From: Entoloma clypeatum
Lineage: Eukaryota > Basidiomycota > Agaricomycetes > Agaricales > Entolomataceae
Reading direction: 5' to 3'
Assembly (NCBI GenBank): GCA_963565915.1
Contig: OY751488.1
Coordinates: forward strand, 4,030,001 to 4,094,000
DNA length: 64,000 bases
Shown here: piece by piece, positions 6,179 to 61,496 of the stretch
Position numbering within the stretch: position 1 is the stretch's first letter
Layout of the letters: each line of letters begins with the position of its first letter
The notes under the pieces: generated by a model
What the model saw: only the letters and a program-made list of their open reading frames with translations
What the model was told of the DNA's origin: nothing
Databases searched by the model: none
Position numbers and translations under genes: made by a program

Positions 6179-6189
6179 TTGCTAAATCT
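6179..6189 (+). other. primer-binding site of chromovirus A (self-priming type)
   Basis: TTGCTAAATCT, two bases inside the end of the 5' LTR, is perfectly complementary to 6094-6104 over 11 nt and not beyond. I see no match to common tRNA 3' ends such as the initiator-Met type TGGT. Confidence 0.75.
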
Positions 6190-24605: not shown

Positions 24606-24835
24606 CCTGCTAGATTTCAGATACTTGAGAATGAGACTCCTCACGGGCATGCGCAAGTGCGAGGGTGTTCAGGTGTTGGACCCTGGTTTGAGGCACAAAC
24701 ATGCGTAAATCTTCGGGAGACAGATTTCTTGACCGTAGACTTTGGCATCATACAGACACCATGGGCAAGGTACGTGGAGCAGCAATGGTGAGATGTTGTG
24801 GTCGAGTTTTGATGACGACGAATAACACTTGAGGG

Positions 24836-27531: not shown

Positions 27532-29716
27532 TCAAAGAGTATATAAAAATCCTGGTTGGCCCTCCAGGGGTTCCGTGAGCTTTCCTGCCCTGGACAGCCT
27601 GTTCAAACGCCGGAAATGGAGGCTGGTGAGACACAGGACAACGATCAAGAGGCATTGTGATCCAATAGCTGTTGCCAGACCAGGGAGAAATCGAGGTGCA
27701 TCTTCTGTACGGAACGCGAGGGTGCCTATAACAGCACCGACACTACCAAGCTTTAGACCACTTTGGACTGCTCTTCAGAGATAGACTTCATTGACATCTG
27801 TCGCAGGGAACAGCGGCATAAGACATACCTTTTCGAATGAGAAACTAGATTGTTGGAGGCCTAGTAAAAAAGATCAGCGGCCGCATCCTAAAGACACAGC
27901 GGGAAAAGATACTTGCGTAGGCCATGACGCCAGGCCCAGTTCCCTGGTTCCCACAGATAGCAAGAAAAATGCCTGCAAGGAGGTCAACAATGAACTGGCG
28001 GAATTGGACGGTGTATTACCGAGATATCTGATTCCACTGCGGGAGGCAAAGGCTGTCATGAGCAACCCTGCGATGCAAATGAGGGCGGATATAACGATAA
28101 AGCCAGTTCGATGCTTTGTTTTATCCGATGCCCAAGAGAGAAACACCATGAACACGATCTGCTACCTACAATCAGGTATTATTCGGATTCTTCCGGCCTG
28201 ACGTACGGAACAGAAGTAAGGTGGTGCGCTCTGCAAAATAAAGTTCATGGTGAGCAAGTTACGGGCTGAGTGTGACTCACGAGAAGTAGAGACTGTGTTT
28301 TGCTCATTCCCATGCCTCGGAGGATGATCGATATGAAGTAGGCTTGAGCATCTAAGCACACGTCGTGAATATTGTTTCTCATGGAGAGACAGGATGGACA
28401 AACATGCGGGTAAGGAGATACACGCGGACATGATTCCTATCGACGTTCAAATTGTGAGTCAGTGCATGGCCAACTTCTTAGGCCTTGTTCCCGAGTGCAC
28501 TTACCATATGCCCAGAGAGTCCAGTCACATAGATGTTTTAATACCACCTGTTTGTTTAATGGATCAGGAATGGAGTCTCCTCGATCCTCTTCGACGCGTT
28601 TCAGGACAAGAGCAGTTTGCTCTGCCGTGAGGAATTTGTTTCGATGAGGGAAGTCTGGGACGAAAAACCAACACAGCACTCCAAAAAAGAGAGTCAGGGA
28701 ACCCTCGATTATCTAACGCCATCCATTCTTGGATGATAAAGTGAAATGATTGTCAAGGATTTGATACTCACAAAAATCCATGCCCAACCCTTGATACCAC
28801 GTTGTCCGTCAAGCAAGGTGAACGTGTATGCTAGTATCGGACTCAAGGCACTTATGGCTGTAGGTACCAAAAGAAAGTAAGCAATTCTGCGACATCACCA
28901 TGAGCATCACTTCCAAACCACGTCGGAGACACACACCGCTTCTGTACTTCGTGACGTTTGTACCTGGGGCTTGGTCAGTCTCTTGGGCATCCATGTGGAT
29001 CGTTACTAGACTGACCAGGTCGGGATGATAAAAAGCATTGCCGGCAAGAGGGAGGCCTGGGGTCAGCATCAGCCGGGATTTTCTAAGATGTGGCAGATAA
29101 TCTACCCCGAAGCTTCCCAGCAAGAGGCGCATCAAAACGAGACAGCCCCAGGTCGGCACAAATGCCGTTGCGAGCTGAACAGCACCCGATGCGGTGATGA
29201 TAAACGTCAGCCAGTTACGCACGCCGACCTTCCGCATTGCGAGTATTCCGGGTAGTTGCCTAACAATGTCACGACCTCAGCAAGGCACACGAGCAGGAAA
29301 TACCTCACTGACAACAAGATGTAAGGGACAGAGTCAAGCGACGATATGATGCTGTAACGATTTCCTGTTTGGAGTTTCTTGACATACACAGGATCAGGAT
29401 GGGAAGAGAAGCAAAGAATGATGGAGTTGCTGACGAGATCGACACCCATGCCTACAGTGTATGCTGCTCCAAGGTTGATTCGATCCATGTCAAGAAAAGA
29501 AAACAGCAATGCTAAGATAGGTAAGATGCGCCAATCGACATAACGCCTACAGATATGTTGTATGAGTGGTCGCAGAGCTTGAGTATAATCATTGCCATAC
29601 ATCGTCTTCTTCTCAAGCACAGAGTCATAAGCGCAATCGTCGCCCTTAGCCTTGATCGATTCAACGGAGGACGTTTTTGACTTAGATGGATCGTCAACCT
29701 TCGATATGAACGGCAT
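27532..29716 (-). CDS. MFS permease, anion:cation symporter (allantoate/Dal5-like) family, copy 1
   Basis: A multi-TM plasma-membrane transporter assembled from several exons. Exon 1 is a hydrophilic N-terminus (MPFISKVDDPSKSKTSSVES), followed by a 54-nt intron (GTATGG...CTGTAG). Later exons encode RYVDWRILPILALLFSFLDM; RYSIISSLDSVPYILL; QLPGILAMRKVGVRNWLTFI; TAFVPTWGCLVLMRLLLGSF; ILAYTFTLLDGQRGIKGWAW; DFPHRNKFLTAEQTALVLKR; and KTKHRTGFIVISALICIAGL. The C-terminus is LEGQPGF-LYTL, stopping at 27532-27534. This order, including the DWR and WAWIF motifs, fits the ACS family, which takes up organic anions such as allantoate, nicotinate or related compounds. The substrate is not predictable. I found no stop inside the exons I could trace. 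A tandem copy lies at 32825-35007. Confidence 0.75.
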
Positions 29717-29919
29717 TGAAAAAATAGGAGGGTAACCACTGGGGTCACTGTCGGAAAGCGCTTTATGTATAGTGGTTCATCCGTCGAGAAAAGACAGGGC
29801 CGTGCGTATAATCTTAGGGTCATCGAGTGGGAACACGTCTCATCCGTACCATGAATCAACCTCCCACTCTTACGTAGTGCTGCCGCGTGGCGAGGTACCA
29901 GCCTGATGTATTGCAGCTC

Positions 29920-32824: not shown

Positions 32825-35007
32825 TCAAAGCGTATAGAAAAATCCAACTTGGCCCTCCAGGGGTTCTGCGAGCTTGCCTGCCTTGGACAGTCTGTTCAAG
32901 CGTCGGAAATGGAGAGTGGTGATACACAGGACTATAATCAACACGCATTGCGATCCAATGGCTGTCCCAAGTCCAGGGAGAAATCGAGGTGCATCTTGTG
33001 TACGAAATGCCAAGGTCGCTATGATGGCACCCAGATTGACAAGATTTGTACCATTCTGGACTGATCTTGAAAGATAGTAGAATTTAATGGATCGTAGGAA
33101 TCGGCGGGGGGGTGTGGAAGAAAGACATACTTCTTCGTATGGGTGACCATATTGTTGGAGATCTAAAGGGCAAGATTAGCAATCGTATCCCGAGACACGA
33201 CTGGAAAAAGAGACTTGCATAGGCCATGATGCCAGGCCCAGTTCCCAGGTTCCCAGAGAGGGTAAGAAAAATGCCTGCAGGGGGTCAACAAGGGACCGGT
33301 GGAGTCGGACGGCGTATTACCGAGATATCTGACTCCATTTTTGGAGGCGAAGGCTGTCGTGAGCAACCCCACGATACAAATGAGGGCAGGCAGAATGATA
33401 AAGCCAGTCCGGTGCCTCGTTCTATCGGATGCCCAAGAGAAAAGCATTGTGGTTGCGATCTGCTACCTGCGGTCAGTTATCATTCGAAGTAATCAGGCCT
33501 GACGTACGGAAAAGAAGCAAGGTGGCGCGCTCTGAAAACAAAAATTTAATGGGCAAAGTACGGACTGACTGTGACTCACGAGAAGTATTGACTGTGTTTG
33601 GCCCATGCCCATTCCTTGAAGGATGATCGTTATGAAGTATGCTTGAGCATCTTGAGCACGCGACGTGAATACGGGTTCTCAAGGAGAGACATCATGGACG
33701 AACATGCGGGTAAGGCAGCACACCCAGTCATGATTGCTGTTGACATAAGTCAGTGTGCGGACCAACGTCTTAGGCCTCATCCGGATGCACACCCACCACA
33801 TGCCCAGAGAGTCCAGTCACATAGATGTTTTAATACCACCTGTTTGGTTAATGGATCAGGAATGGAGTCTCCTCGATCCTCTTCAACGCGTTTCAAAACA
33901 AGAGCAGTTTGCTCTGGCGTAAGGAATTTGTTTTGATGGGGGAAGTCTGGAACAAAAAACCAACACAGCACCCCCGAAAAAGAGAGTCAGGAACCCTCGA
34001 TATCTAACGCCATCCATTCTTGGATGAAAAAGCGAGATGATTGTCAAGAATCCGATACTCACAAAAATCCATGCCCAACCCTTTATACCACGTCGTCCGT
34101 CAAGCAAGGTGAGCGCGTATGCTAGTATCGGACTCAAGGCACCTAAGGCTGTAGGTATCAAAAGAAAGCAAGCAATTCTACGACATCACCATGAGCATCA
34201 CTTCCGAACCATGTTGGAGATACACACCGCTTCTGTACTTCGTGGCGTTTGTACCTGAGGGCTTGGTTAGGTTTTGAGGCGTTCATCTGATTTTGTACGA
34301 GGCTCACCAGGTCGGGATGAGAAAAAAAATGGCCGGCGCGAGGGACGCCTTGAGGTCATCATTAGCCAGAATTTTCTAAGCAGATGGTAGATAATCTACC
34401 CCGAGACTTCCGAGCAAGATGCGCGTTAGAATGAGATAACCCCAGGTCGGTACAAACGCCATTGCAAGTTGGACGGCACCCGATGCGGTGATGATAAACG
34501 TCAGCCAGTTGCGCATGCCGACCTTCTGCAAAGCAAGCATTCCAGGTAGTTGGCTAACAATGACATAGTAACCTTAGCAGAGGCAAACCAGCATGAAACA
34601 CCTCACTGACAACAAGATGTAAGGGACAGAGTCAAGCGACGATATGATGCTGTAACGATCCCCTGTTTGGAGTTTCTTGACATACACAGGATCAGGATGG
34701 GAAGAGAAGCAAAGAATGATGGAGTTGCTGACGAGATCGGCACCCATGCCTGCAGTGTATGCTGCTCCAAGGTTGGTTCGATCCATGTCAACAAAAGAGA
34801 ATAACACTCCTAAGACAGGTATGATGCGCCAATCGATATAACGCCTGTTATTAATACTGTATGAATAACGCAGAGCTCGAGGAATCGTAATTGCCATACA
34901 TCGTTTTCTTCTCGAACACAGAGTCATAACCGCAATCGTCAGCCTCAGGCTTAACGGATTCAACGGACGATACTTTCGAGGTGCTTGAGTTGGATGGATG
35001 TTCGAGC
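32825..35007 (-). CDS. MFS permease, ACS family, copy 2 (5' end lost in a gap)
   Basis: Tandem duplicate of the gene at 27532-29716, on the same strand and about 5.3 kb away, with the same exon blocks: RYIDWRIIPVLGVLFSFVDM; RYSIISSLDSVPYILLS; ILAYALTLLDGRRGIKGWAW; DFPHQNKFLTPEQTALVLKR; RTRHRTGFIILPALICIVGL; C-terminal LEGQVGFFYTL with stop 32825-32827. The first intron keeps GTATGG...AACAG, although its length differs by one base from copy 1. The start codon lies in the N gap at 35008. The exon parts I checked are open, but full integrity is unproven. Confidence 0.7.
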
Positions 35008-35207
35008 NNNNNNNNNNNNNNNNNNNNNNNNNNNNNNNNNNNNNNNNNNNNNNNNNNNNNNNNNNNNNNNNNNNNNNNNNNNNNNNNNNNNNNNNNNNNN
35101 NNNNNNNNNNNNNNNNNNNNNNNNNNNNNNNNNNNNNNNNNNNNNNNNNNNNNNNNNNNNNNNNNNNNNNNNNNNNNNNNNNNNNNNNNNNNNNNNNNNN
35201 NNNNNNN
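35008..35207. other. assembly gap (200 N)
   Basis: Exactly 200 N, a placeholder covering the 5' end of MFS copy 2. Confidence 0.99.
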
Positions 35208-36239
35208 AAGCAATTCGCGCAACGTCGCTACGGGGACACATGCGTTTACGGACGACGAGGTTCGAGATTACTAGACGGTAGGGTTTGCGTTGTGCGCCTC
35301 GAGGATAGACGTCAAACGAGCACCGTCTGGGGGAGCGGTATAGCTCTCCTCGAGTTGAAAGCCCCGCACCCGAGTCATTCCTAGTTTTCGACGGTCGACG
35401 AGTCCCGCGGCGCTTGGTGATCTCAACACGACCGGACCGAAAAGCTGAAGGCGAAAATCTGTTTAATTCATCGCTTCCGTTACGAACAACTTCCATTTCC
35501 TACAACCCTGCCTGTCACCTACATTCGGATACTTCGTTACCAATAACCTCATTCTCGTAACCAGACAAGATCTTTCTCTTTGTACGTGTTAGTAGGTACA
35601 AAATCGTTTGTATTCGCATCAACAAATGGATCCTTCCCGACTTTTGACTCCCACTTTTCGATTTCGACTCTGCGAACTTTGCCTCACCCACGAACTCTCT
35701 CTCACTCACTTGGGCGGACCCCACTTGAGTTTTTACAACCCGACTTTATCTCCGTGTGCTCGTGTGCTCCGCGGTTTACGACTCGCCTCACTGCTCTCCG
35801 GAGATATAACGCCGACCGACCCTCCACCGTCTGTAGCCGGTTCGCGCCTCCACACCGTCAGGCCTGCCCAGGCGCGCCCTCGATTGGTTCGACAGATCGC
35901 TCACTACCAAGGGAGGCCAGCTCGATGGTAGATGCACGGTCAATGCCATGGCGCGCATTTTCGGTGTTCTTGATGATATGACAATTCTTGAATAATATGA
36001 GATTATTAAGAGAAACGAGAGGCAATGAATCGACGCACAGCAGATGCCATCACAAGCACACCTAGTCTAGAAGGGTGGACTACCGATCAGCTGTCGTGTT
36101 CAACCGATCGACCGAATGAAGAACATACGGAAGTGTGCAATGGAAAAAAGACATCACATCGAAGTTGAAGTTCGAGAGATGAGTGTTAGCTAACATTCCG
36201 GCGAAGAGAACTGTCAAACACTGTGAATATCTTGAGGTT
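35208..36239. other. gene-free stretch
   Basis: Long chance frames on both strands (for example 35580-35981) have no recognisable protein pattern. Probable intergenic sequence with the upstream region of MFS copy 2. Confidence 0.35.
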
Positions 36240-36930: not shown

Positions 36931-38940
36931 GAGATCATCCATAACGTATCAAACCGACGGAACGTCGCGTGACCAACCTCCAAATGTGTTCCACCTCGAA
37001 AGGCACGCCAACCAGCAGCTCACAAACCTGGAACGCAGCGGCAGAGTCTGGCGGACGACGGAGGCGTTAGCAGACTATGCACATCCAGAAATCATTCCTT
37101 ACACGATATGCAATTCACCACGAAACTTGACGAGGGGGACAAGAAACCAGGGGAAGTCTGAGTCATGTCCATTGAACGTGACGTCTGCTGGATCCCAAGA
37201 GTTGGCAAGCAAACAAAGTCTTAAGTATAGATTCCATATATATCCTGATCCTGAAGGGCTGACTCTTGGATCTGTTTCAAGGGTTCAACGTTCTAACCAG
37301 GTCCAAACGTTACCTTTCACTTAAGTCCCATCATATGTATATACTTTTATAGTATCGACTCGGGGTGGCGGTCTGAGTTGTTGCGGCCGTTCACACCCTC
37401 ATCGGCTGCGCAGGTCGACGGGATACTTGGCCATCGCAGTCCAGCAGGCTTCACGTCGGTCCGCATCGCGGTCCAGCTGCATGTACATACAGACTTGAAT
37501 GTGTCGATAAGTCGGTTTTGGAGCTCATCTTGAATCTGATTTCTATGTAGACTTTAGACATGAACTCAGATAGCCCCTAGAAAAAAATTTAAGTGACTAG
37601 TAGAAGTGAAAAAGAGCCTTTCCTCGATAAGTCTCTGTATCATAGCTAGTAGGATTGCATCGAAATTCGCAAGTCGATTGTGTGGTTTGAGCCTCAACTG
37701 AATCGCCAGACGCCTGATGGAGCAGAGTTGACTGCAGCCCTGGCCGGTCTCAGCACCTCACAATCTGTTATCAATCCAAACTCCAGCAGGGCATGCGGGA
37801 GAGGACTGAGTTCACGGGGATGGCAAATGTTCGATATTGTAACGTTACCTCCAAGAGTATTCGCGAAAAATATCGTCTCATCCCGGGCCGTTCAGCCGTT
37901 CATGGCCAGAGATGCCCGTGGAGAGAAAAAAGCGTAAGTTACAATGAGTCACGAAACACACGCGCGGAATATTGTTATTGTATCCAAAGCCTGGTAAGGT
38001 CATTTAGAACTCACAGCTTTGAAAATCAATCAAGGTTAGAAACTTACATTGACGTTGTTGAAACTTCCCAGACCACACCAGTTATTTTACTGTGAAAGTG
38101 GGTTTAATGAAACAACGGAGGAATCCCAGTAACCGTTAGCGAAAAAAAGTTGTATACACGAAAAAAAAACTCGCTTTTTGTTGGCTCCCGAGGCGAGGGA
38201 ACAATGTTTTTGCACGGTTCGCCATATTGAACGCGGTTATCGCGAGCGTCACAACGCAACGAGAAGACAAGCCGAAAAAAACAATAAACGGCGTTCAAAA
38301 AAGACCGTGTCGGCGACGGGAACGGAGGCGAATCCGAGGCAGCGTCGGCGAGGGAACCACCATGCTCTTCCCGCTTCTTGATTTCAGCTTCTACTGGACT
38401 CGGATAAAGCGGTAATGACATACAGTATGGGCTCCAGCCTGAGAGGGGGGAGCAACGATGGGTTCATCTCTGAAGGAACTTGGGACATGTGGTTGACGGA
38501 AGAAAATGGAAGGAATGACCATTAGTGGTTGAACTGGAATGCAGGAGCTCGACATGATCAAAAGAGGAAAAGACTCACTTCCGAGTGTGTTGACCTGCCA
38601 TAATATTATGAATTAGATGCGGGAGCGGGTAGTCTGCAAAGATTTTTTGGCTTTTGGTGAGCTTCAGGCTTCAAGGACTGGACACTGGTTCTGGCGAAGG
38701 TGGGAAGCCTTGGCGTAAGCCTGCTAAGAATGTCCTTCACTACATCCGCAGTGCTGTTCACAATAACCCAAACTGTCTTCTCTGCAGATGGTGCGTTGGC
38801 CAAAAAAAATGAGCTCTGTTCTAATGCGACTCATGCTAGAAAACAATATGTTCTTCCCCTACTTGACAACCGCGCTATAGGACGACCTAGTATAACCAAG
38901 CGTCAGGGCGCAGCCCATCTATTTGATATAAGAAGATGAC
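36931..38940. other. stretch with no supported gene
   Basis: The 136-codon frame 36914-37324 and others at 37680-38421 show no protein family pattern. 38600-38940 is the 3' flank of GH12 copy 1 and is partly repeated at 41500-41840. Confidence 0.35.
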
Positions 38941-39910
38941 TCACGTCTTGAATGTGGCAGATCCCGAGGTGGCTTCTGTGCCTGCTTTCACGGCGGTGAG
39001 GTATTGTGTGTTGGTTAACCCCTGTTTCTTGACCAAGTACTGGGGGGCAGGTTTGAACACTCAAGCTCTTTATCAAGAAAAAGTAGCTCACAGTAAGGAA
39101 CACGTTCAAATCACTGTTGAATATGGATATAGTTCCACGGGAGGGAACGAAGGTGCGGACGTTTATACCATTAGCCAATCCAATGTAAAGGTCCCTGTGT
39201 TTGTACCCATTTAGGGCTCTTCATTGAGAGAAAATTATCCCTGGACTGACCAAGTGTAGCCAGCAAGAGAAATATTAGTTGTCACAGGTACTGGCTTTCC
39301 AGCAACGTTGATAGCCTTTGAAACCGGAAACGCATTATGAGTCGCAAGCCAGATCCTGATCTCATTGGTGCCGTCATGAGGGACCAATGAAGTGATCAAG
39401 CGGTACGTGATGGTGTCGACAACAGATGACGGGTTATGAGAGGCTGGAGACGATTGGGACCACGACCATGACGACTGAATACAACCTCAAAAAATCAGCA
39501 AGGGGTGGGGGGTCAAGCATGCATGAGGGGATTTACTTGGATGGAATGGATAGCAGAGAGTTGGATGGGAAGGTTATTTTTCACAGCAACATTTGTGTAG
39601 CTCTTTATATTGTTACCACCTTCCCAGGCCCAAACGGTCGACCATCCAACGTTGATGCCGCTCTGAGAATCGACCTGAGCACAGACTTTCGGCTTTGAAG
39701 CTGTCACCAATTGATCGAGGGAAAGTCTATACGGTCCGGCGGGAAGAGTTTCGGATTGATCTTGAGACAATGAAAGATCAGAATCTAGGCCGCGCTCGAA
39801 GATATCACTGGCTCACGGCAGGTCAGAGCAGGCCTTACAACCAACTCAGCAAGCGGTGAGGTCACGGCGAGTGGAATCAAGGTGACGAGGAAAGCGACTG
39901 TCAACTTCAT
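38941..39910 (-). CDS. secreted GH12 endoglucanase/xyloglucanase-like, copy 1
   Basis: Five exons, about 250 residues, the normal size for GH12. Exon 1 is a signal peptide (MKLTVAFLVTLIPLAVTS). Exon 2 has CAQVDSQSGINVGWSTVWAW and the SYTNVAV strand. Exon 3 begins SSWSWSQ and holds the nucleophile Glu in TNEIRIWLA. Exon 4 has GLANGINVRTFVPS and ends in the NSDLNVFL strand. Exon 5 has YLVKKQGLTNTQYL and the acid/base Glu in AGTEATSG, with stop 38941-38943. All four introns have GT-AG ends (GTGAGC, GTAAAT, GTCAGT, GTGAGC). GH12 enzymes cut beta-1,4-glucan or xyloglucan with a pair of glutamates, both present here. A tandem paralogue lies at 41843-42836. Confidence 0.85.
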
Positions 39911-41842
39911 CGTAAGCGATGTTCGGGAGGAAATGTTAAGACGGGATTTGTTGTGACTTTGAACTGCACACCTTTTTATGCTTGGTGTTTCGAAGAAAGA
40001 TACATTGATAAGAAGGCGTTTTTTTTTGTTGAACAGGGTCAGAAGATGTCGCCCACTTTCACAGGAACGTGCAGCCAATGTAGTATGGCCCAAACGGATG
40101 TTTGGAGGCTCTCTATCAAGGGTGAAACATGGACGAACATGAACGGAGTGCTCGTGACGTGCAAAAAGTTCAGGGGTGAGATCGATGAGGGATTCGCCCT
40201 TCTACCAAGGCTGAGGAATCGAGTGGATAACAACGGCATGGGAATGTGACGATGGTCCGTGGACTCGGAACTTCGATTCTTGTGTCGAGTTGCCATGTAC
40301 CAGGTGCCAGTTTCGAGTCATCGTCGACTCTGAGTTCGGTTTAACAGTTCAAATTGGCTTCCCATTGCCTCCGAGACGTAAGACTGGCGCCGGAGCCATC
40401 GCTTGTACCAGAACAGAACAGACACGGGTATCTTCCTCCCTGTGGACCGTCCTAAGGTTGAGTTTGTCCTCGAAAAATCACAACGATGAATGGGGTCGCT
40501 CCGCAATGTTCGAAAGGATCTACGCAGTGTGGCTGTGCCCTGAACGTTGAACCGCAATTTCTTCATCCTCCCCATCTGAACCGCCATCTCCACTGTTGGT
40601 CCAACTCCTAGGCCTCAACCTTGGCCCTTCTGAACCCATTCTCCCGCGGGTCGGGATCGACTGATCGTTCCAACTTCTCGAGGTTCGGGGTCTCCGTCGT
40701 CGCTTTGGGGGGCGGGGGGGGAGGCCGCGACAACGTTCACATTCGCCGTCTTTGCATCGCTGGACCTCAAGGCCAACAGAAAGGAGTCATGCGGGGTTAC
40801 TACGAACGAGACTGTATGTTCCCATGCGTCATTCATTCCCTCGTTCCCACCAACCAATTCACCCCTTTGAACCCCAAGTCAACACGCTATGCCCACCTCC
40901 GCCCGAAATCCTCCACCTCTTGACGTCTACTTTCATTGCCGTTGGCTGCGCATCCTCGACCTCGGCACTTAGCTGCTCCTCCGCCAATCACTGCCTTAAA
41001 CTAGCTAATCGTAACAACCGTCCCTTCTCGACCAGGCCATCGAATCGCCTCACCACTCTCGGGATAGGGGGAAGTATTGCCTCCACGTGCCAAGGCCGGT
41101 ACCCTCATTGTTGAAGTTTACGCGACGGTTGGGTCATAGATCCGAGACGGCGGTTGGAAATATCGGTGACAAATTTGAAGCATCATATCCTTGCCTTGCT
41201 TCTAGTCCCGCGAATGGTTTAGACCGGAAAGGTTCTTGGTATGCAGCCACTTTTGGTCACTGCATCATCATTCATGCAAACTTTGAGAAGAACTGATCAT
41301 TGGTACTTCGAAAGGTTTTGAAAACCATCGGAATACTTCAATGTGGTCGACAGAGCGGGTAAAGAGTATCTATGATTGGTTGCTGAACTGGAACTCAGGA
41401 AGAGTTGTGGCCATGCTGTAATAATATTGACGGTCATGGATACTTACTTTTGAACCTAGGTGGTGGCCTGAACAAGGCCGACATGATTAAATGAGGAAGC
41501 GACTGTTATGAATTAGATGCGGGTGGGACGACAAAATAGCTCTTCATGCAGAGTTAGTCTGCAAAGATTCTCAAAGCTGTTGGTTAGTCTTCAAGAATTG
41601 GAGACTGGACAGTGGACACTGGTTCCGGTGATATTCCGGTGATGTACTAGTAGATGCGAAAATTTGCGGCTGTAGTCTGCTTTCGACGCCCCCCACTGCA
41701 ACCACAGTAACCCAGACTTTCTTTTTTTCCAAATGATTCATTGGGGAAGAAAATATATACTGTTCTATTGTATCTCATGCCAGAAACCAATACCTTCATC
41801 CGTTGATGACCGCGCTAAAGGACGATCTAGTATAACCAAGCG
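39911..41842. other. spacer between the GH12 genes, partly a tandem duplication
   Basis: 39911-40420 (promoter side of copy 1) recurs upstream of copy 2, and 41450-41840 resembles the 3' flank of copy 1 (38600-38940). The middle (about 40550-41450) appears unique, with a G-run near 40710. I recognise no gene in it. Confidence 0.5.
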
Positions 41843-42836
41843 TCAGTCCACAATCCGTCCATGTGAGCATGAAATGATGACCAACGTCTGGATTTTGGCG
41901 TATCCCGAGGAGGCTTGTACGCCTGCGCGTACCGAGGTGAGGTAATAAGTGCTGGGGAACTTGTTGTTCAAGAGCAGGTACTAAGAGGCAGAGCTTGAAC
42001 ACTGAAACAGTTCTATCACCACGAAAAAATAGCTCACTGCGAGAAACACATGCAAATCGCCTTTGAAGGTTGAGATAGTCCCGCTGGTAGGAACGAAGGT
42101 GAAGATGTTTACATTGCTATCCATTCCATTGTGAAGGTTCCTGTATTTATATCCGATTACCGGGATTCTTCAATGAGATTATTGCCCTGGACTGACCACT
42201 CGTGACTGGCAAGAGATTTCACAAGTACTGGCTTTCCACTTGAGATTGGAACCGCCTTATGACTTCCAAGCCAGATCCTGATCTGAATGGCATCGTTGGC
42301 GGAGTAAAAGCTCACGGAAATGAACAAGTGGTACATGACGGTGGCGACAACGGAAGACGCTTGAGAGTCTTGAGACCATGACCATGACGACTATATATAA
42401 CCACCCGAAATCAGCAAGGAGGGTCAAGCATGGATGAAAGGGACTTACTTGAATGGAACGGACACCGGAGAGCTCCCGGTAGATGCCATGTTTCACAGCG
42501 ACGTTCGTGTAGGTTTGTTCGGTGCCAGCTTTGTTGGACCGAGTGGTCGACCACGCAATGTCGTTGCCGCTGTGAGAATCGACCTGAGCGCAGACTATGC
42601 CTGACGGCGCCTTGGTATCTTTCACCAATGTATTGACGGAAAGTGAATACGGTCCAGCAGCGATAACGTCAGTTTGACCTTGAAGATAGGGGTAGATCAG
42701 AATCTAGGGCATGCTTGAAAAACATCACTGGCTCACGGCAGTTGACAGCCCTTACATCCAACTCAACAAGCGAGGAGGCTGCGATGAGCGGAATCAAGGC
42801 GACGAGGAAAGCGAGCTTGGAGACGGTCAACTTCAT
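41843..42836 (-). CDS. GH12-like protein with both catalytic Glu replaced by Gln (copy 2)
   Basis: Same five-exon layout as copy 1, with the same intron positions and GT-AG ends. Signal peptide MKLTVSKLAFLVALIPLIAA; exon 2 CAQVDSHSGNDIAWSTTRSN and TYTNVAV; exon 3 WSWSQDSQ; exon 4 NVNIFTFVPTSGTIS with GDLHVFL; exon 5 YLLLNNKFPSTYYLTSV; stop 41843-41845. The nucleophile motif reads IQIRIWLG (E to Q, CAG where copy 1 has GAG) and the acid/base motif reads AGVQASSG (E to Q, CAA where copy 1 has GAA). No frame breaks were found. By GH12 chemistry this protein should not hydrolyse glucan. A binding or decoy role is possible but not shown. The promoter-side sequence is shared with copy 1. Confidence 0.8.
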
Positions 42837-43180: not shown

Positions 43181-43560
43181 TATGAACAGGGTCAGAAGAT
43201 GTCCCCCACTTCCACAGAAACGTGCAGCTAGTTTGGTATGGCCCAAACAGATGGATTGGTTGGAGGCGCTCCGGTATCACATATCACGGGTGGAAACTAG
43301 CATGAACGGTTGAAAATGGAGTGCCCGTGACGCGCCCTCCTAACAAGGCTGAGGAATCGAGTGGATAACAACGGCATGGGAATGCGACGCGGTGGATGGT
43401 CCGTGGACTCGGAACTTCGATTCTTGTGTCGAGTTGCCGTGTATCAGGTGCGAGTTTCGAGGCATTGTCAACTCTGAGTTCGGTTTAACAGTTCGAAAGT
43501 TGGCTTCTCATTCCCTCCGAGACGTTAGACTGACGCCAGAGCATCGCTTGTACCCAGTGT
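43181..43560. repeat. extra copy of the GH12 upstream segment
   Basis: Closely matches about 40035-40420 upstream of GH12 copy 1 (both contain GAGGAATCGAGTGGATAACA and GTGGACTCGGAACTTCGATT). A shorter related segment lies at 42860-43080, so the upstream region of copy 2 is itself repeated. The 67-codon signal-peptide-like frame at 42964-43167 (minus) sits between these and is probably chance. Confidence 0.65.
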
Positions 43561-44356: not shown

Positions 44357-45118
44357 CTACACTGATTCATTCATCGCCGTGTTCACTGACGGTCCATAAT
44401 CGGCAGCAGCGTCTCCCGCCTCAGACTCCAACAAGAGTTCGTAAGCCTCCAGCTCCTCTGCCAAGCCCTCTAACCCTCCCTTCCAAAAGTACTCCATTGC
44501 ATGCACCGATGCTTCTGCACTGCCATCTCGCAAGTTTGGATATTTGAAGAGGGTTTTAAGCAGTATAGAAACCTTTCGTGGTGGATCACTGGGTTGGGCT
44601 GGAGGAAGGGTTGATGGTGGGATTGTAATCCTTCCAGTTCGGGGTGGCAGCAGCAGTGGCATCGGCAAGGGATCATTATCTTCTACAGGCTCAGTGTCCT
44701 CAGCAACGACGTCATTGATCAGCTGTTCTGAAAGCTGATTAAAGGTTAGTGGGTGTTCCAAAACCTCGGCTTCCATGTCGTCGGCAGCCTCTGACTCTCC
44801 CTCGTTCGGCAGCCTCGTGCTGAACCTTCTCTTCCCTCGGGCACAAAGCAAGTTAAGTCTATCATGAGTCTGTCTAATATCCATCCCTACCATGGTGGCC
44901 TTACGAACCTTCTCAACCCCTAGCCTACTGCGAATAGCTGTATGCACCAACCCCATGTGGCTGAATACACGTTCGCAATCTGCTGAATTTGCGACAGCGC
45001 TCAGGATGTGCATTGCCAGTGCCACAAGCTGGTTGTGTCCGGTTGGTTTGTTTGACTCGGTTTCAAGGTTTTCCCAAATATGGATGGGATCCAGCTCTTT
45101 TCCCTTTTGATCAACAAT
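44357..45118 (-). pseudogene. hAT transposase C-terminal dimerisation domain fragment
   Basis: Minus-strand frame with WENLETESNKPTGHNQLVAL, then AMHILSAVANSADCERVFSH and the following MGLVHTAIRSRLGVEKVRKA, the typical hAT C-terminal dimerisation pattern. An acidic tail follows (222 codons from 45025 to a stop at 44357). The catalytic N-terminal part is missing, since upstream sequence changes at about 45120 to the head of another gene. It may be related to the source that mobilised hAT-1 and hAT-2, but this is unproven. Confidence 0.75.
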
Positions 45119-45239
45119 TAAGGCCCGCTATCCATATGTGTGCAGGATACCGCAATCTGGACAGCAGAATATTATGTAATGTGCACATGACTTTACTCAA
45201 CCTCGCCGCCAACTCGCCAACTCGACACGCTTTCCGAAG

Positions 45240-48200
45240 ATGCACAATGACGATGACGAATGGGACGACATCGGCTGCGACCAGCTCACGCAGGAAGAGG
45301 TCCAGGCCCTTCAAGCCATCAAAACGGCCATGTTCAGCCAACATGAAGGGCATCACACGTTGGGTAAGTCCTTGACACCGACTTTCCGGGCGGGAGCTAA
45401 TCAAGCGCAAAAAGGCAAGCAGCCGTGGAGGGCACCGTGCCGCATTGTCCCCTTGCTGTACAGGGTGACGAACCAGGTAAGTACTCAACCGACCCAGCTC
45501 ATCACCTCATTACGCCCATCTCACCGTTTTTTTCCTGCAGGCTCATCAGATCACGATTCGATGCAGTCTGTAACACTGGTGCGTGCACTCATCGTGCTTC
45601 CCCCGTCCCGGCCGACCTCTCCCCTGGATTCCGGCGCATCAACGCCCAGCACCACCGCATCTGCAACCCCAGTCAGACAGAAACACGGCCGCCCGAAGTC
45701 CACGCCGGCCTTTATCGGTCCACGATGGCCTCCTGGCCGTCCACGAGGGACTGGTCCTAAGCAGACGGCAGAGGCGATGAGAGACGCTCAGGAGAAACCA
45801 AAGCGGGGGCCAGGGTGGCCAAGAAAGACGGTGGTCTCTGAGCCACCGGTGGTCGTCATCAAATTCAGAAGGATGGTACATCCATCGTCTCTCGCATCAC
45901 TTGCCTTCCATAGGTGCTCACTTCCATTCTCCCAGCGCGCTCCGGGAACACGGGCTCCCATGGCAGCAGCTTCCGAATGTGAAACCCAGGTCTGTGCTCT
46001 CTGTTGTTCATCCCGTTACCAGCTACTGACATCGCGACAGCATTCGGCCACCTCCACTCGATTCGGCGCAGGTTCAGCAGGGGTACAGGATGGTGCTCAG
46101 GGCTCTGTAGTACCTATTACTTCAAATGTACGCCCCTCCCCGCCAACAGAGCCCTGCATTTCCAGCAGCTCTCACCCAGTGAATGCACCGAGTATGGTTG
46201 CTCTTCAGGGTCAAAGGACTCTTGCCCCTGTTGTCAAGAAGTATGAGTCCGTAAGAAGTAGCCAACCTTGCCAGTTGATTGTGCCGGAGGAGGATCCACA
46301 ATGGCCAGCCAAAATTGGGGATGAGGAGGAGGAAGAGGACTCAGGGGTTGTTGGAGATGGTGTTGGAGAGGATGATGGTGATGTTGATGAGGGGGAGAAT
46401 GGGCTCAATGATGCCAAGGATGGAGCACACAAGGCAAGCCCAAAGAAACTTCCACTTTGGCTTGAAAAGGTGTTCAAGGCCCACGCTGCTGAGGCTGAGC
46501 AGAGGGATGAAAATAGTGTTCCTCTTCTGTACGCTCACTCAAAGATGTTCTGGTTCCCCAACAAGGCCAACTACTTCCTGCTAGAGGAGGCAGCAGAGAC
46601 TTCACCCTCGGTGCTCAACAATCCCCGAATCCTCTTGTGAGATCCAATGCCACTCTGCCAGCCTCATGGAATTCCGTGCCCAAGCAGCCCCTCCAGCGGC
46701 ATAGCATGCTACCACGCCCTCGTCGCTGTGTCGACAATGATGGCTGCTTCTGGATCATTGGGTATCATTACCGCTGTGCTCACTGTGTTCATCCGAGGTC
46801 TGGCAAAAATACGATCACATTTTGCAGCTGGGACAGGCGGATATTGTCTGCTATTCCAGGTGAACTCGCTTGCGAGTTTCCAGCCCATCTGACTTCCTGC
46901 AGCAGGATGTCGGAGCCCCTGTTTGAGTTGATGAGGACGTCCTTCCAGAATGGCACTGGCTCAAAGCAGTTCTCAGATTCTCTTCGTGTGCAGCATCTGT
47001 TGAAGCATGATGCGCACCACCTACAGTATCTCAAGTATCTTGCACAGCGTCATCTTGATCAGTGGACAGGAGAGAAGTATCTGGCCTTCCTCCCCTACGA
47101 TGATACCAGCCCTGATGGGCCCCATGGCTTCGTCCCAAGCTCAAAGTGGCTCTGTGCTGTATATGACTCATTCATTGAGGATCACTCCGCCGACTTCAAA
47201 CAGCATATGTCCATGTTGAGTGGTGAGATTATTGCAGTTGACCACAGCTTCAAAGTGTGTTGGTATATTACTCTGAAATACCCATTTTCATTTAGTCTCT
47301 TTCTTCAGATCACAAAACAAATTGCGAGGGAGGATGGTGAACAGGTCTTCAATGGTCTCTACATGATAACAAATGAGAAAGCACAGATCCGGGGATGCTA
47401 TCTTGTGGTGACCAAAGCTCACTCACAGGTTGAGCATGGCCTGATGAAGATGAATGAGTCATTGATCCTTTATGGTAATTCTCCACCAAGTGTGGCTTAC
47501 ACCGATGCAATAGGTGATCGGCAGCTTCTCGAGTGATGCTTCCCTGCTCTGAGGGAAGGTGTTGTTCCTGTGGAAGAGTACAGCCATCTTGATGAGTTTC
47601 GGGTACCTCCAGAGTTTGATGTTCAGGTCAAGAATACATCCACATTGATGGATGATGCTATTCTCACCATTATGGATGATGTACCAGTGGATAAGGGATA
47701 CATAGTTGTGGGCGTTGATACCAAATGGAACACCAAGCGTGGTATCAATGAGCAGGTTTGCGAATGTGGAAAGACAGCCATCATACAGATTGCATATCAG
47801 AGCCGTGTCTATATTTTCCAAGTACATGTCATATCTGTTTGGTCTAGAGCTCAGGGAGGGCTCACTCTTATCTCAATTGAAGATTGCCAATTTGGAGACT
47901 CTTCCACAGCAACTCAAGGTGTTTCTGTCCCATCCTCGCATCCTTAAGGCTGGCCGGATGGTCTCAGGTGATCTTCTCCATCTGCAGAATGCCTGTGATT
48001 CATCTGAATCATTTGTGGGTGGCCTTGACCTGGGAAGATATGCGAAGGACCGGCGCATCATCTCAAATATGGCAAAGGGCAGCCTCTCTGACCTCTGTGC
48101 TCTGGTTTTGAACAAGAGGCTCAACAAGAACAGACCTGAGTGCCTCAGCCAAGCATGGGAAGATCTGATGCTGACAAGGGAGCAGGTTCAGTATGCCGCA

Positions 48201-50257
48201 AAGGATGCTGTGGCATCTTTTCTCATTTATTGGGAGCTCTCAAAGCTTGCCTGTCCTGAGCCACTTTCTGGTGAGCTCTCACCATCCATTCCCATCCTTC
48301 TTCTTGGCTCTGATAACAATGTCATTGCAGAAGGACAGATCTCCTCCCATTTCGACGATGGCGCCTATGATGACATTAACATCTCAAAAACTCGAACAGT
48401 CATTGACATCTCAAAGGTCTTGATTCCTGGTGCAAAGGTTACCACACATCGAAAGCAGCCTTTGAACAGCTTTGGACCCACACCGTTTTCTGTTGTCTGT
48501 CTCAAAAGCCATCTCTGCACATTTGTTCCCTCCACTTTTTCCCATCCATCTTCTTCAGATCCACCCTCAGGCTTAACACCCCCCTCGCTGCCCCTGCCAC
48601 CTCCAGAGGCAGACGACGAGGATATTATGTCCATTGGAAATCTCCTTGACTCTGATCTCTCTGGGCCTGAACTCTCTGACAGCATGAAGGAACTCGACCC
48701 TGCCAGTGCCGCCCTTGGAAGGGCTGTGCTTGGAAATCTTGGGATTCCATGGTTTTGAGCCGCATCATCAAAGATCCATTCCATGTCTTCCAGATGTTCC
48801 ATATCTCTGCCAAGCATCCTCTCCGAAAACAGTTTACCCGGGACCTCCGCGATGCCATCTTTATTCCCGATGTGGTAGACAAGGCTCACATTGAGGCTTG
48901 GGGATCTACCCAGAATCCACCAAAGACATACAGAGAGCTGTGGAACTCATCTCCAGGATGGCTTCGCCGGCGTTGTAAACACATCATCCCTCCTCCAGAC
49001 CAACTCTATCCACTTGTTTCAGCCGTATTTCACACTTATGGTCCCTTGAAGGATCCTGAATCCCATCTGCCACTCTTCACCCCCACCAACTGGAAAACGG
49101 CAAAAAGTGTTCTGGACCTTATTCAAAAGGGCTTCCTATCAGATCCCCCTGGAGTTCCACTCTTCACAAAAATCGGCATTGACAAGACGGCGGATGGGCT
49201 CCCCTTGTATCACTGTGCACGAGGAACCAACACAACTGAGAGTGGTGTTCACATGCACATTCGCTCACGGCTACCAAAATGTGGCACATCCATCTGCCAC
49301 ATGCAGGCTATTCTGATGGACTTCACCCTTCGCCACAATCTTATGGTCAGTCTAAACATTCTAAATTTTGATTTGTCATGTGTTCTGTTGATCACATTCA
49401 ATTTAGACGGGAACATTCACTACCACTGGCCAGCACTACTGTGCACACTTCTCTACTGGCTCACCAATCAGATACAGGAGTACCTGGTCTTCCTAGAGGA
49501 CAAGCTCATCAACCCGATTTCAATGTTGGGATGGGTCAACACAAACTTGTACATACCGACAAAGGAAGTGATCGGCATACCACTGATTCCAGCCAAAGTT
49601 CGAGCAGTGAGCGGCATGGCTGAATACCTGTCCACCATCAGCCAAAAGCAAAGGCATCATTTTCTGGCACTTATGCAAGATACACGAAAGCCAGTCCTGC
49701 CTGTATATTCTCCGGCCAAGAAGCAGCTGTTCCGCAAGCTCATGAAATCCAACCAGTTCCAGAGTGGAGAGCCAAAATGGAAGGAGACTGTGAAAGTGTG
49801 GAACACAGAGGCCGACATCAGCTCGAACGTTTTCATATCCTATAAGGTGTGTAACACTTGATCTTTGGATCTCTCACTACTGTGATCACTGTTGCTCGGG
49901 TGACAGCTTTCCAAACACCTTGAGGCCTACTACACCAAATGGAAAACCATGATCAAGGTCCGAGAAACCCTATCTCTCAATTCGGCACCCCGCAATGCCC
50001 TATCCCACATCATTCACAACCCCTGTCACTTGTTAAATGCTCCCCCGGTACCAGAACAGCAGCCTCGCGGGCCCAATGAGAGCCATGCCTGTGGCCTCCT
50101 TCATGCCGAAGCTCTCAACAATTCAACCTGGCCTCCTGAAGCCATGGAACCTCAACCTCGAGCACCCATGACCACCAGCGCATCACCAGGACCGAGTACC
50201 AGTCACGCCCCAATTCGCACCGAACTGTCACCGGCCCTTGAGTATGAAGAACACTGA
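45240..50257 (+). pseudogene. large transposase-like protein with DDE-type domain and 3'-5' exonuclease domain (decayed)
   Basis: Order of parts: AT-hook-like basic motifs (KHGRPKST, PPGRPRGTG, GPGWPRKT, about 45690-45835); an acidic stretch (about 46320-46400); LPLWLEKVFKAH and FWFPNKANYFLLEE; a cysteine-containing block (WIIGYHYRCAHC); an RNase H-fold DDE-like domain (EIIAVDHSFK, 54-nt intron 47255-47308, ITKQIAREDGEQVFNGLY, AYTDAIGDRQLLE); a WRN-like DEDDy exonuclease (VVGVDTKWNT, HPRILKAGRMVSGDLLHLQ, QVQYAAKDAVASFLIYWEL); and a long C-terminal region (GWLRRRCKHIIPPPDQLYPL, GLPLYHCARGTNTTESGVHM) with a last intron near 49848. Decay includes TGG to TGA at 46638, a frame change near 46680, CGA to TGA at 47534, frame changes near 47820 and 48750, and loss of exonuclease motif I Glu (DTK for DTE). 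I recall this architecture in many mushrooms; no function is established that I know of. Confidence 0.7.
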
Positions 50258-51095: not shown

Positions 51096-51970
51096 CACTG
51101 ACTCGGAAAAAGTATTGCACCACGTGATATCAAAAACATATTGATGCGATGTCTGCCTGGCAAGAGATAGGTGGATGAGACAAGGTGGCGAAATTATACA
51201 TTATTGGGTAGATATTATGTGCAGAAAATATCCCGTTTGGTATCCTAAGATTGGGGGTACAGTGGGGGGAAAAAACACATCAGATGATGCATTTCTTTTT
51301 CTGTTTTTTCGCACCGAAGCAAAAGTTTGTCAAAACAATTGCGAGAGAAGAGGAATTTTCACGAGACACTCACAGAATACTAGTATCGGATGTGTTCACC
51401 CTTTGCCCTCAACAAGTCATGCACCCTATTTGGCATGCTGTTGTAGAGATTGTTGATGAAGCCCTTGGGTATATTCTCCCACTCCTCCCTCAAAGCCAGC
51501 CATAATTCATCGATGTTCCTTGGTAGTGGGTTCCTAGCATGTACCATGTGATCCAAGTAGTCCCACAAATTCTCGATTGGGCTCATATCGGGTGAGTTGG
51601 GACACCAGGGTAAGATATCAATGCCCTCGAGTTCAAGCCAGCCCTGAGCATGTGCCGAACGGTGCTTCGGATTGCCGTCCTGTTGGAAATAGATAGCTTC
51701 ACGGTCCATACCATGCTTGGTAAGAGTCCCTAGAAGGGATTTGGAGAGAATATCAACATAAACAAAGCGATCCATGATGCCTTCGATTCGATGTAGTTCT
51801 CCAACTCCATAACTCGTGATGCACCCCCAGACTATCATGCTCCCGCCCCTGTGCTTGATCTTCTTTTTATTGTATCTCGGATCGCAAGCCTTCCCTGGTT
51901 CCCTCCAACACCATTCCCGACCATCCGATCTGAATAGATTAAATTTTGACTCATCCAAAAATATCATGGA
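51096..51970 (-). mobile_element. Tc1-like element, truncated by insertion of chromovirus C
   Basis: The terminal repeat starts at 51096 (CACTGACTCGGAAAAAGTAT), preceded by TA at 51094-51095. The transposase reads toward this end. The element stops at 51970, where the 5' LTR of C begins. Its other half should lie beyond the 3' LTR of C, outside the window. Confidence 0.85.
51380..51970 (-). CDS. Tc1/mariner (DD34E) transposase, C-terminal part
   Basis: Catalytic triad visible: first Asp in MIFLDESKFNLF, second Asp in YFQQDGNPKHRS, Glu in SPIENLWDYLDH with exactly 34 residues between the last two, hence DD34E. Also GGSMIVWGCITSYGVGELH. It ends at 51380 after a basic C-terminus (MPNRVHDLLRAKGEHIRY). 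The DNA-binding N-terminus is cut off by the LTR at 51971. The remaining frame is open. Confidence 0.9.
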   Translation of the reverse strand, partial: SMIFLDESKFNLFRSDGREWCWREPGKACDPRYNKKKIKHRGGSMIVWGCITSYGVGELHRIEGIMDRFVYVDILSKSLLGTLTKHGMDREAIYFQQDGNPKHRSAHAQGWLELEGIDILPWCPNSPDMSPIENLWDYLDHMVHARNPLPRNIDELWLALREEWENIPKGFINNLYNSMPNRVHDLLRAKGEHIRY

Positions 51971-52513
51971 TGTCATAACCATACGATTCACATCCGACTT
52001 ATCCGACGACTCCGACGATTCATCCGCTCCAACATCCGCTCCAACAACATTCTATTTATATTGATTATACTTCTACTACGTAACATCTCAACCATACTTA
52101 CAAGTAGACATATGTTGTTCACTTTTCATTTGCTACTCTCCGTACTCCGAATGTTCCGATGGTCAACTCCGATATCTGCACATCACTTATAGTAATACTG
52201 ATCATTCTAGTCTACTATAAATAGTGTACAAACCTGTCGTAGAACCTCAGTTCAAATATCATACGTTACACCTCATTCGCATCCGTCTCTACTTGCCTTT
52301 GAGCATTCTCTCCGTCACCTCCGCTCATCCGCTCATCCGCTCATCCAACATCTGCCAATCCGAAATCGAGGACCACGTCAAAGAGTGGGGCGCAACACAC
52401 AAGTTGAAGCCAGGTCCTTTCTGCCAACGTCGCACTTACCGCATTCCGCTCCTCCGCTACTCCGCTCCTCCTCGTCCGACATTTTCCGACGTTGAGAAAC
52501 ACGCTACGTGACA
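51971..52513 (+). repeat. 5' LTR of chromovirus C
   Basis: 543 bp, TGTCATAACC...CTACGTGACA. The first 370 bp recur almost unchanged at 63630-64000. Confidence 0.85.
52216..52259 (+). promoter_or_regulatory. TATA box and predicted start of the self-priming RNA (element C)
   Basis: TATAAATA at 52216-52223. AGTTCAAATAT at 52249-52259, starting 33 bp from the TATA box, is the exact complement of the primer-binding site at 52516-52526. The spacing matches element A although the sequences are unrelated. Confidence 0.75.
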
Positions 52514-59100: not shown

Positions 59101-59829
59101 CTTTGGGATCTTATCAAAGTTCTCTTTCTTGAAAAGATGAGCAAATCGTTCAACATATGAGGGTTGTTTGGTTGTGGGAGGTGGTGTGGGAGTGACAGCT
59201 TCCAAGATAGGGTCTCCAGGCTTCCATTTCTGATCCGACTTTTTGGGTGCATCTTTGTCGCGCACCTCAACCATGTGAACCCAGTGTTTGCGACCATTAA
59301 GGTTAATCCTGAAATCCGAGTGTTTGGTTTGACATGTTGTTGGGCACCGGTTAAATGTTACCGCGCCGGTTGTCCAATTGATTGTGGGGTTGTGGTGTAC
59401 CAACCAGTCATGTCCCAAGAGCATGTCCGTCCTCCCAATGTCCAGTACCATTGCTTCCATGGTTTCCTGATGTGCTCCCAAATCCAGTTTGACTTCGGCA
59501 AGTTGGCTCGCTTTCTGTTGTCGATTTGGTGATCCATCCACATTTAGAATTGCTATGGGTGGTATTCCTCGCGTGGGGAGGTTCTGTTTGCGTACTATTC
59601 TGGGATGAATGCATGTGCGTTCACATCCGCTGTCAACCTCAGGTCGGATAACCTTTGGTCCTTGTCGTGTTTTGAGCTGCGCTAACAGCCTGATTTCTCG
59701 TCTTTTCGGAGGTTTATCTCCCTTCACAATCTTAGTCAACGCAGCGGCTCGTTTGGCAGGGATGACATAGGTTCTATTGTCTGCAGTCATACAAGGCAAG
59801 CAAGTCCGTTTAATAGATAAGGGTCGCAA
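56191..59829 (-). CDS. pol: pol of chromovirus B (PR-RT-RNase H-IN-chromodomain), one internal TGA
   Basis: About 1213 codons in one frame, with a single TGA at 57871-57873 (element A has TTA, Leu). Protease RPEVDSGCERTC; RT FINKKDGSKRLVQDYRMVN and VIYMDDIMV; RNase [16 protein letters not shown] and [13 protein letters not shown]; integrase finger [11 protein letters not shown] with GCDTCQRNK; core [21 protein letters not shown]; chromodomain [19 protein letters not shown]. It lies in the -1 frame relative to gag (11 bases after the gag TAA), unlike A, because A has four more bases at the junction. No canonical slippery heptamer is seen; TTTTCCC before the stop is a weak candidate. Confidence 0.9.
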
Positions 59830-59840
59830 CTTAGCGTCGT

Positions 59841-61400: not shown

Positions 61401-61485
61401 AATGGGTTACTGGTGAAGTTTTCAAAGAAGCGCGACGTCTTGACTCGTCTGGTAGTTGCTCTCTTTGCTCTGGGCGAACCTAACG

Positions 61486-61496
61486 AGATTTAGCAA
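61486..61496 (-). other. primer-binding site of chromovirus B (self-priming type)
   Basis: TTGCTAAATCT on the minus strand, two bases inside the 5' LTR. The complement of the start of the predicted transcript lies in the LTR at 61571-61581, 33 bp from TATA (61607-61614). Confidence 0.75.

Follow-up and report, generated by a model that had tools for sequence, protein, structure and literature searches.

Apparent stepwise loss of catalytic residues in a GH12 family of Entoloma clypeatum, and a probable secreted pseudoenzyme among its members

Introduction

An intact gene that belongs to a family of glucan hydrolases and encodes glutamine at both catalytic positions raises the question of what its product does, if anything. 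Such a gene, referred to here as copy 2, is found together with a related gene, copy 1, in a stretch of 64,000 nucleotides from the basidiomycete Entoloma clypeatum (GenBank assembly GCA_963565915.1, contig OY751488.1, positions 4,030,001 to 4,094,000), hereafter called the window. The original prediction, made from the DNA of the window, regarded copy 2 as an altered tandem twin of an active copy 1, in which two separate changes had fallen exactly on the catalytic codons while the rest of the enzyme was preserved. It proposed a secreted non-hydrolytic glucan binder or a decoy, which might shield its partner in the manner of PsXLP1, a decoy of Phytophthora sojae.

The residues relevant to this question have been described for Trichoderma reesei Cel12A (TrCel12A) and other GH12 enzymes. 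According to Zhang et al. 2015 (PMC4680936), Trp22, Glu116, Met118, Trp120 and Glu200 are absolutely conserved in GH12, the mutants W22A, D99A and M118A of TrCel12A each have <1% activity, W7A carries an activity cost of 13%, and E200Q served as the inactivated form of the enzyme. The GH12 Asp equivalent to Asp99 has also been termed a strictly conserved catalytic residue (PMC3597598).

Results and Discussion

Gene structure and active-site residues of the two copies

The spliced model of copy 2 is open throughout, i.e. no frame breaks were found, and both copies score well above the curated cut-off of the Pfam GH12 model (Table 1). Both genes consist of six exons, not five as had been proposed. 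The last donor is GTTGGT in copy 2 and GTGAGT in copy 1. The GTTGGT donor is common to all five members of the clade formed by copy 2 and its sisters on the same contig (C6:4282k, 4286k, 4334k and 4339k, see below). This odd donor raised the suspicion that intron 5 of copy 2 might be coding, which we rejected: the intron measures 59 nt in copy 2 and C6:4286k but 60 nt in the remaining sisters, and a coding stretch that varied in this way would not keep the frame.

Table 1. Positions in the window of the two GH12 genes and their features
Feature	Position	Strand	Basis or remark
Copy 2 gene (250 aa), start codon through stop	41796..42836	-	spliced model open throughout; PF01670 71.1 bits (curated cut-off 27)
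Copy 2 exons (n=6)	42836-42737, 42678-42449, 42390-42197, 42140-42038, 41980-41886, 41826-41796	-	spliced model
Copy 2 nucleophile-position codon CAG, Gln146	42283..42285	-	alignment; Glu in 91/91 outside GH12 proteins
Copy 2 acid/base-position codon CAA, Gln231	41915..41917	-	alignment; Glu in 91/91 outside GH12 proteins
Copy 2 codon CAC, His131, at Asp99-equivalent (YDLF)	42328..42330	-	Asp in 91/91 outside proteins
Copy 2 codon AGG, Arg148, at Met118-equivalent	42277..42279	-	Met in 91/91 outside proteins
Copy 2 intron 5, donor GTTGGT, 59 nt	41827..41885	-	gene models
Copy 2 upstream stretch matching that of copy 1	43333..43542		also in sisters C6:4282k, 4286k, 4334k; absent from 4339k
Copy 1 gene (255 aa), start codon through stop	38859..39910	-	gene model; PF01670 78 bits (cut-off 27)
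Copy 1 exons (n=6)	39910-39817, 39760-39537, 39474-39251, 39194-39092, 39039-38945, 38886-38859	-	gene model
Copy 1 codon GAG for the retained nucleophile Glu144	39361..39363	-	alignment to GH12 chains
Copy 1 codon GAA for the retained acid/base Glu237	38974..38976	-	alignment to GH12 chains
Copy 1 upstream stretch, three blocks 87-95% identical to those of copy 2	40195..40396		repeat families D8, D2, D11

The catalytic columns were located by phmmer alignments to solved GH12 chains (the Glu columns of EIMVWL / EIMIWL and GTEPF), and equivalences to TrCel12A were assigned from sequence motifs (YDLF; E-x-M-x-W; LWG) and their spacing in the alignment rather than from superposed coordinates. The alignments agree with the predicted replacement of both catalytic residues: copy 2 has Gln in the columns of Glu116 and Glu200, encoded by CAG versus GAG and CAA versus GAA, and falls short of an active enzyme at both. 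The equivalents of Asp99, Met118 and Trp22 are His, Arg and Leu, and the equivalent of Trp7 is lost as well; the equivalent of Trp120 (Trp149 in the numbering of the metagenome GH12 protein P0001) and the core fold residues are kept. Copy 2 thus resembles the xyloglucanases and endoglucanases of the GH12 family (PF01670), such as PsXEG1 and TrCel12A, in Pfam and phmmer matches that span most of its length, in two cysteines (present in all 16 paralogues described below) and in the core Trp, Tyr and Phe columns, but differs from them in the absence of both Glu, of the Asp99 and Met118 equivalents and of the Trp of the -2 subsite. Judged by these residues, copy 2 should not hydrolyze glucans, as had been predicted. 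Its secretion is read from the N-terminus, which by eye is signal-peptide-like, as is that of copy 1.

Copy 1 retains both catalytic Glu and had been taken for the active partner. Its equivalents of Trp22, Asp99 and Met118 are, however, Leu, Arg and Arg, and because these are the positions at which Ala mutants of TrCel12A have <1% activity, copy 1 is a doubtful enzyme and is probably inactive despite both Glu.

A search of the protein collection with copy 2 alone yielded 591 candidates and none at 1e-5, with a restrictive word filter that missed even P0001 (50% identical). The search of a plasmid collection and the Rfam scan of the window led nowhere.

A family of 16 GH12 genes

Among the named records in the 120 matches listed out of 1138, the mitochondrial ATP synthase subunit a of this genome is most similar to that of Hypsizygus marmoreus (95%), Singerocybe (92%) and Collybia sordida (91%), followed by Lyophyllum and Leucopaxillus (90%). 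This suggests an agaric close to Lyophyllaceae and Clitocybaceae; the taxa named belong to the suborder Tricholomatineae. We searched the 60 Mb genome (20 contigs; the window corresponds to C6:4030001-4094000) with copy 1, copy 2, P0001 and a GH12 protein from Stereum (P0082). Each of the four queries returned the same 16 GH12 loci: eight on contig C6, four on C8, three on C1 and one on C15 (C15:1797k, hereafter the C15 gene), a number to which copies concealed by assembly gaps could add. The Pfam GH12 model matched only five of the 16, because introns split the genes. Eleven weak matches of copy 1 (E 0.003 to 2.3, 22-29% identity) were not accepted as paralogues; the one on C13 was inspected and has no GH12 motif. 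At the DNA level, copy 2 together with its upstream region recovered the same 16 loci and eight short matches, of which we inspected one, a relic of 73 bases (C12:402359-402431) comprising a copy 2-type 5' leader and the first codons without the GH12 body. This is the only broken copy recognised among the places inspected.

All 16 frames are open from the ATG to a single stop according to spliced alignment with extension to the stop, made with a gene-model script that penalises stops and is therefore slightly biased to open frames, and all share the six-exon layout. In the C15 gene this layout is obtained with a GC-AG intron 2. In all 16 genes the modelled acceptor of intron 1 ends in AAG, where CAG or TAG would be usual. 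A Gly-rich C-terminal tail is present in C1:1056 and C1:1195 and absent from the other 14 genes.

In order to place copy 2 within the family, a maximum likelihood tree was calculated for the 16 paralogues and 16 of the 105 outside matches, with the four catalytic-site columns excluded. The paralogues are monophyletic (support 100/98) and adjoin P0001 and P0002. The C15 gene branches first (it bears a long-branch flag, which makes this placement less sure), followed by the C1 trio and then by the C8 and C6 genes. The closest relatives of copy 2 are its four sisters, which lie 210-270 kb away and share 89-94% DNA identity; the five-gene clade has support 100/100, and the group of copy 2, C6:4286k and C6:4334k within it 99/96, although the inner order of the five is less firm than these values imply, because conversion has shuffled exon blocks. 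Copy 1 is placed outside a group of seven genes that includes copy 2 (90/79, a modest support), and the two proteins are 52% identical. The view of copy 2 as a tandem twin of copy 1 is thus not supported, and both the tree and the DNA identities reject a simple duplication from one to the other. The upstream likeness of the two genes (Table 1), whose proteins are only 52% identical, may reflect either conversion or a kept control region.

Apparent order of residue losses

For comparison with the family we used 91 of the 105 GH12 matches, after dropping 12 with lengths outside 230-300 residues and two from Streptomyces, and defined 60 columns conserved at >=93% in this outside set. Asp131, Glu145, Met147 and Glu238 (P0001 numbering) are present in all 91 proteins. 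It had been stated that the changes in copy 2 hit just the catalytic residues; in fact copy 2 departs from 30 of the 60 conserved columns, copy 1 from 22 and the C15 gene from 6. The median conserved column is altered in five of the 15 non-C15 genes, and Glu145 and Glu238 in six each. With half of the conserved columns changed in copy 2, it is unsurprising that both Glu are among them, and by this comparison the catalytic codons are not singled out. Fifteen of the 60 columns are intact in all 16 genes and, besides the start Met, all of these are Trp, Tyr, Phe, Gly or Leu.

The C15 gene is the sole paralogue that has the equivalents of Trp22, Asp99, Glu116, Met118 and Glu200 together, the equivalent of Trp7 being lost. 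It shares with copy 2 the family, the six-exon layout and the type of N-terminus, but differs from it in having kept the Asp, Glu, Met and Glu of the active site and the -2 Trp. In the other paralogues we found a graded pattern of losses. Asp131 and Met147, which correspond to Asp99 and Met118, are missing from 15 of the 16 genes and replaced by various residues, so that a single early loss is the simplest, though not the only, reading. The Trp22 equivalent is lost in 11 of the 15 non-C15 paralogues, and the Trp120 equivalent is kept in all 16. The nucleophile column has Gln in three genes, Ala in three and Glu in ten, the acid/base column has Gln in five, Ala in one and Glu in ten, and seven genes retain both Glu. 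The minimum number of changes on the tree is two for each Glu column and six for Asp131. The loss thus looks stepwise, the acid/base Glu having apparently changed to Gln in the five-gene clade before the nucleophile changed in three of its members, and Glu-to-Ala changes would so have arisen on two other branches. On the tree the two Glu went one after the other, and after other active-site residues, which does not support the notion that two changes were directed at the catalytic codons while the enzyme stayed intact elsewhere.

Selection, gene conversion and the case against decay

Rates of change were estimated with a codon-model script that matches the omega and log-likelihood of IQ-TREE for the five-gene clade. 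Omega is 0.93 for all 16 genes, 1.87 for the five-gene clade (p 0.0026 against 1), 1.51 for this clade without C6:4339k, its most distant member (p 0.068 against 1), 0.82 for three C8 genes (p 0.32 against 1) and 0.68 for the C1 trio (p 0.046 against 1). M2a is preferred over M1a for the five genes (p 1e-14), for the five without C6:4339k (p 1e-7), for the C8 genes (p 0.007) and for the C1 trio (p 0.0003), and M8 over M8a for the five-gene clade (p 1e-15), all of these being site-model p-values that gene conversion can inflate. A branch model of the 16 genes with six groups fits better than one with a single group (p 0.005), and yields omega values of 1.85 for the five-gene crown, 1.08 for its stem, 0.98 for copy 1, 0.82 for the C1 stem, 0.64 for the C1 crown and 0.86 for the rest.

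Trees of separate blocks reveal recombination among the five genes: exon 1 with intron 1 joins C6:4286k with C6:4339k (bootstrap 99), and exon 3 joins C6:4282k with C6:4339k (bootstrap 100). When each block was given its own tree, omega was 4.13 for exon 1 (p 0.065), 2.12 for exon 2 (p 0.041), 2.39 for exon 3 (p 0.020) and 0.71 for exons 4-6 (p 0.43). A joint test of exons 2 and 3 gave p 0.008, and the joint comparison of M2a over M1a p 5e-8. In pairwise comparisons of the five, the bootstrap probability that dN<=dS is <0.05 in four of ten pairs, each of which involves C6:4339k, and the probability that dN<=intron K is <0.05 in eight of ten. Introns did not provide a clean neutral yardstick: in each of 12 further pairs tested their divergence is lower than dS, and they may be constrained or homogenised, and for this reason the codon models were relied on instead.

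Eleven codons exceed a posterior of 0.9 (copy 2 residues 30, 32, 99, 101, 102, 105, 136-139 and 141), as calculated on a single tree for all exons. Nine of them are within residues 99-105 and 136-141, the latter segment being 5-10 residues before the nucleophile position. In a GH12 protein of A. niger, the loop that contains Asp114, two residues before the nucleophile Glu116, lies at the substrate pocket (PMC10991132), and by analogy residues 136-141 of copy 2 are expected to border the cleft. Taken together, the evidence that diversifying selection acts on the front exons of the five-gene clade is good, although not final; the effector-like fast evolution suggested by omega >1 is weakened by the conversion and by the p-value of 0.068 without C6:4339k.

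About 3.7% of random substitutions in GH12 frames create a stop, and the 16-gene tree carries about 1,546 substitutions. By this approximate count, about 58 stops would be expected if the genes were neutral (about 6.5 in the five-gene crown) and none is seen, which argues against decay. Copy 2 does not look like a decaying pseudogene, and this part of the original prediction stands.

Possible functions of copy 2

We consider it rather likely that the product of copy 2 folds, is secreted and acts as a GH12 pseudoenzyme, in a diversifying family used for binding. The components of this reading carry different weight: that copy 2 is not a glucan hydrolase and is kept by selection seems highly probable, and that it has an evolving protein partner is nearly an even question, leaning slightly to the doubtful side. 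The combination of intact genes with fast change in one group suggests GH12-fold proteins turned to binding. According to this scenario, the Asp99 and Met118 equivalents would have been lost early in the family, in all members except the C15 gene; the acid/base Glu would have been replaced by Gln in the ancestor of the five-gene clade, and the nucleophile Glu by Gln in three genes including copy 2. The frame, the splice layout, the two cysteines and the core aromatic and glycine residues are retained, with amino acids in exons 2 and 3 of the five genes changing faster than silent sites. The hydrolytic cleft would have been abandoned and the jelly-roll scaffold reused to bind, most likely, an evolving protein (a host inhibitor or receptor, or a protein of a competitor), and the loop before the nucleophile strand would be one changing surface.

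More tentatively, an ordered dismantling of catalysis and diversifying selection beside the nucleophile strand might have turned this enzyme family, within a single mushroom lineage, into a radiating set of secreted pseudoenzymes, which would be an arms-race family or a recognition system between fungi. In the former case the partners could be, for instance, plant inhibitors of GH12 that bind in the groove, or receptors similar to RXEG1: the loops of RXEG1 insert in the active site of XEG1 and inhibit it (PMC11431604, PMC13331592), and GmGIP1 binds both PsXEG1 and PsXLP1, the latter more tightly (PMC8960721). A changing cleft rim would fit proteins that evade or capture partners of this type.

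Two GH18 proteins of Moniliophthora, a genus of the Agaricales, bring up a different kind of binding, in which the cleft of copy 2 would hold glucan without cutting it and hide or sequester fragments, as MpChi does with chitin. MpChi of Moniliophthora perniciosa has a natural Glu to Gln replacement (E167Q) in its catalytic motif and a changed Met in the catalytic pocket, and binds chitin, and MrChi has D135N and keeps a reduced activity (PMC8960721). Copy 2, too, has Gln for Glu in the catalytic motif of a GH protein whose secretion is suggested by the N-terminus; it differs from MpChi in that the latter is a GH18 protein with a chitin ligand that has been shown (PMC8960721), the likeness of copy 2 being one of residues. 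The E200Q form of TrCel12A retained its binding to CMC, even when W22 was altered as well (PMC4680936), and the Trp120 equivalent is retained in the whole family. Nevertheless, we regard glucan binding as rather unlikely, given that the -2 subsite Trp is Leu in copy 2 and missing from most of its paralogues, that the Trp7 and Asp99 equivalents are lost with Arg at the position of Met118, and that a cleft for sugar should be conserved, yet fast codons adjoin the nucleophile strand. A remodelled cleft that catalyses some other reaction is hardly credible: His131 and Arg148 do stand in place of Asp and Met, but copy 2 lacks a carboxylate in both catalytic columns, and we know of no GH12 precedent.

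The proposal that copy 2 is a decoy that protects an active copy 1 against an inhibitor from a plant, in the way PsXLP1 does for PsXEG1, draws on the proximity of the two genes, on their common upstream blocks and on the existence of a GH12 decoy (PMC8960721). PsXLP1 is, like copy 2, a secreted inactive GH12 paralogue that has lost the acid/base Glu; it lost this residue by a C-terminal deletion and has an active partner to which it is 67% identical (PMC8960721), whereas copy 2 is a full-length protein altered by substitutions, in a 16-gene family and with no close active partner. PsXLP1 is therefore not supported as a close precedent. Copy 1 is itself probably inactive and not the sister of copy 2. 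If there is a decoy, the enzyme it protects is more likely encoded by the C15 gene, which alone retains Asp, Glu, Met and Glu, and we find the decoy model improbable. We think it quite improbable as well that the genes are useless and drift under relaxed constraint, held open for now by homogenising conversion. The family omega of about 0.93, the conversion between copies and the omega of the three C8 genes, not different from 1, are in line with such drift; against it stand the absence of any stop or frameshift from the 16 copies, the omega below 1 of the C1 trio, and the C12 relic as the single broken copy recognised among the places inspected.

Individual cases of inactive GH paralogues that serve as decoys or trap fragments are already known (PsXLP1, MpChi). 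Our literature search, whose coverage falls short of most subscription journals, gave no report of a GH12 family comparable to the one described here, and none that treats GH12 together with the term pseudoenzyme. A whole family dismantled stepwise would provide a natural series, from the near-canonical C15 gene through the partially altered copy 1 to the dead copy 2, suited to testing how an enzyme fold is used once its chemistry is dropped. It also implies that counts of GH12 genes taken as counts of endoglucanases in mushroom genomes can mislead, as only one of the 16 genes keeps the key residues here.

Surroundings of the GH12 pair

The window contains two near-identical retrotransposon copies in opposite orientation (6186-11494 on the plus strand and 56191-61489 on the minus strand), recognised from their long frames, which we take to be of the Ty3/gypsy type. 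Matches to KDZ, hAT and DDE_3 transposases (23357-24616, 44360-45127 and 51383-52051) flank the GH12 pair on either side, thus it is located in a transposon-rich stretch. Adjacent plus-strand frames at 46517-48755 match DUF6729 and a 3'-5' exonuclease, and are perhaps another mobile element. Transporter-like peptides, near-identical to each other, are encoded at 29207-29776 and 34574-35227; the Pfam scan of the former frame gave no match, and the latter abuts a masked stretch. The genes of the window are intron-bearing throughout.
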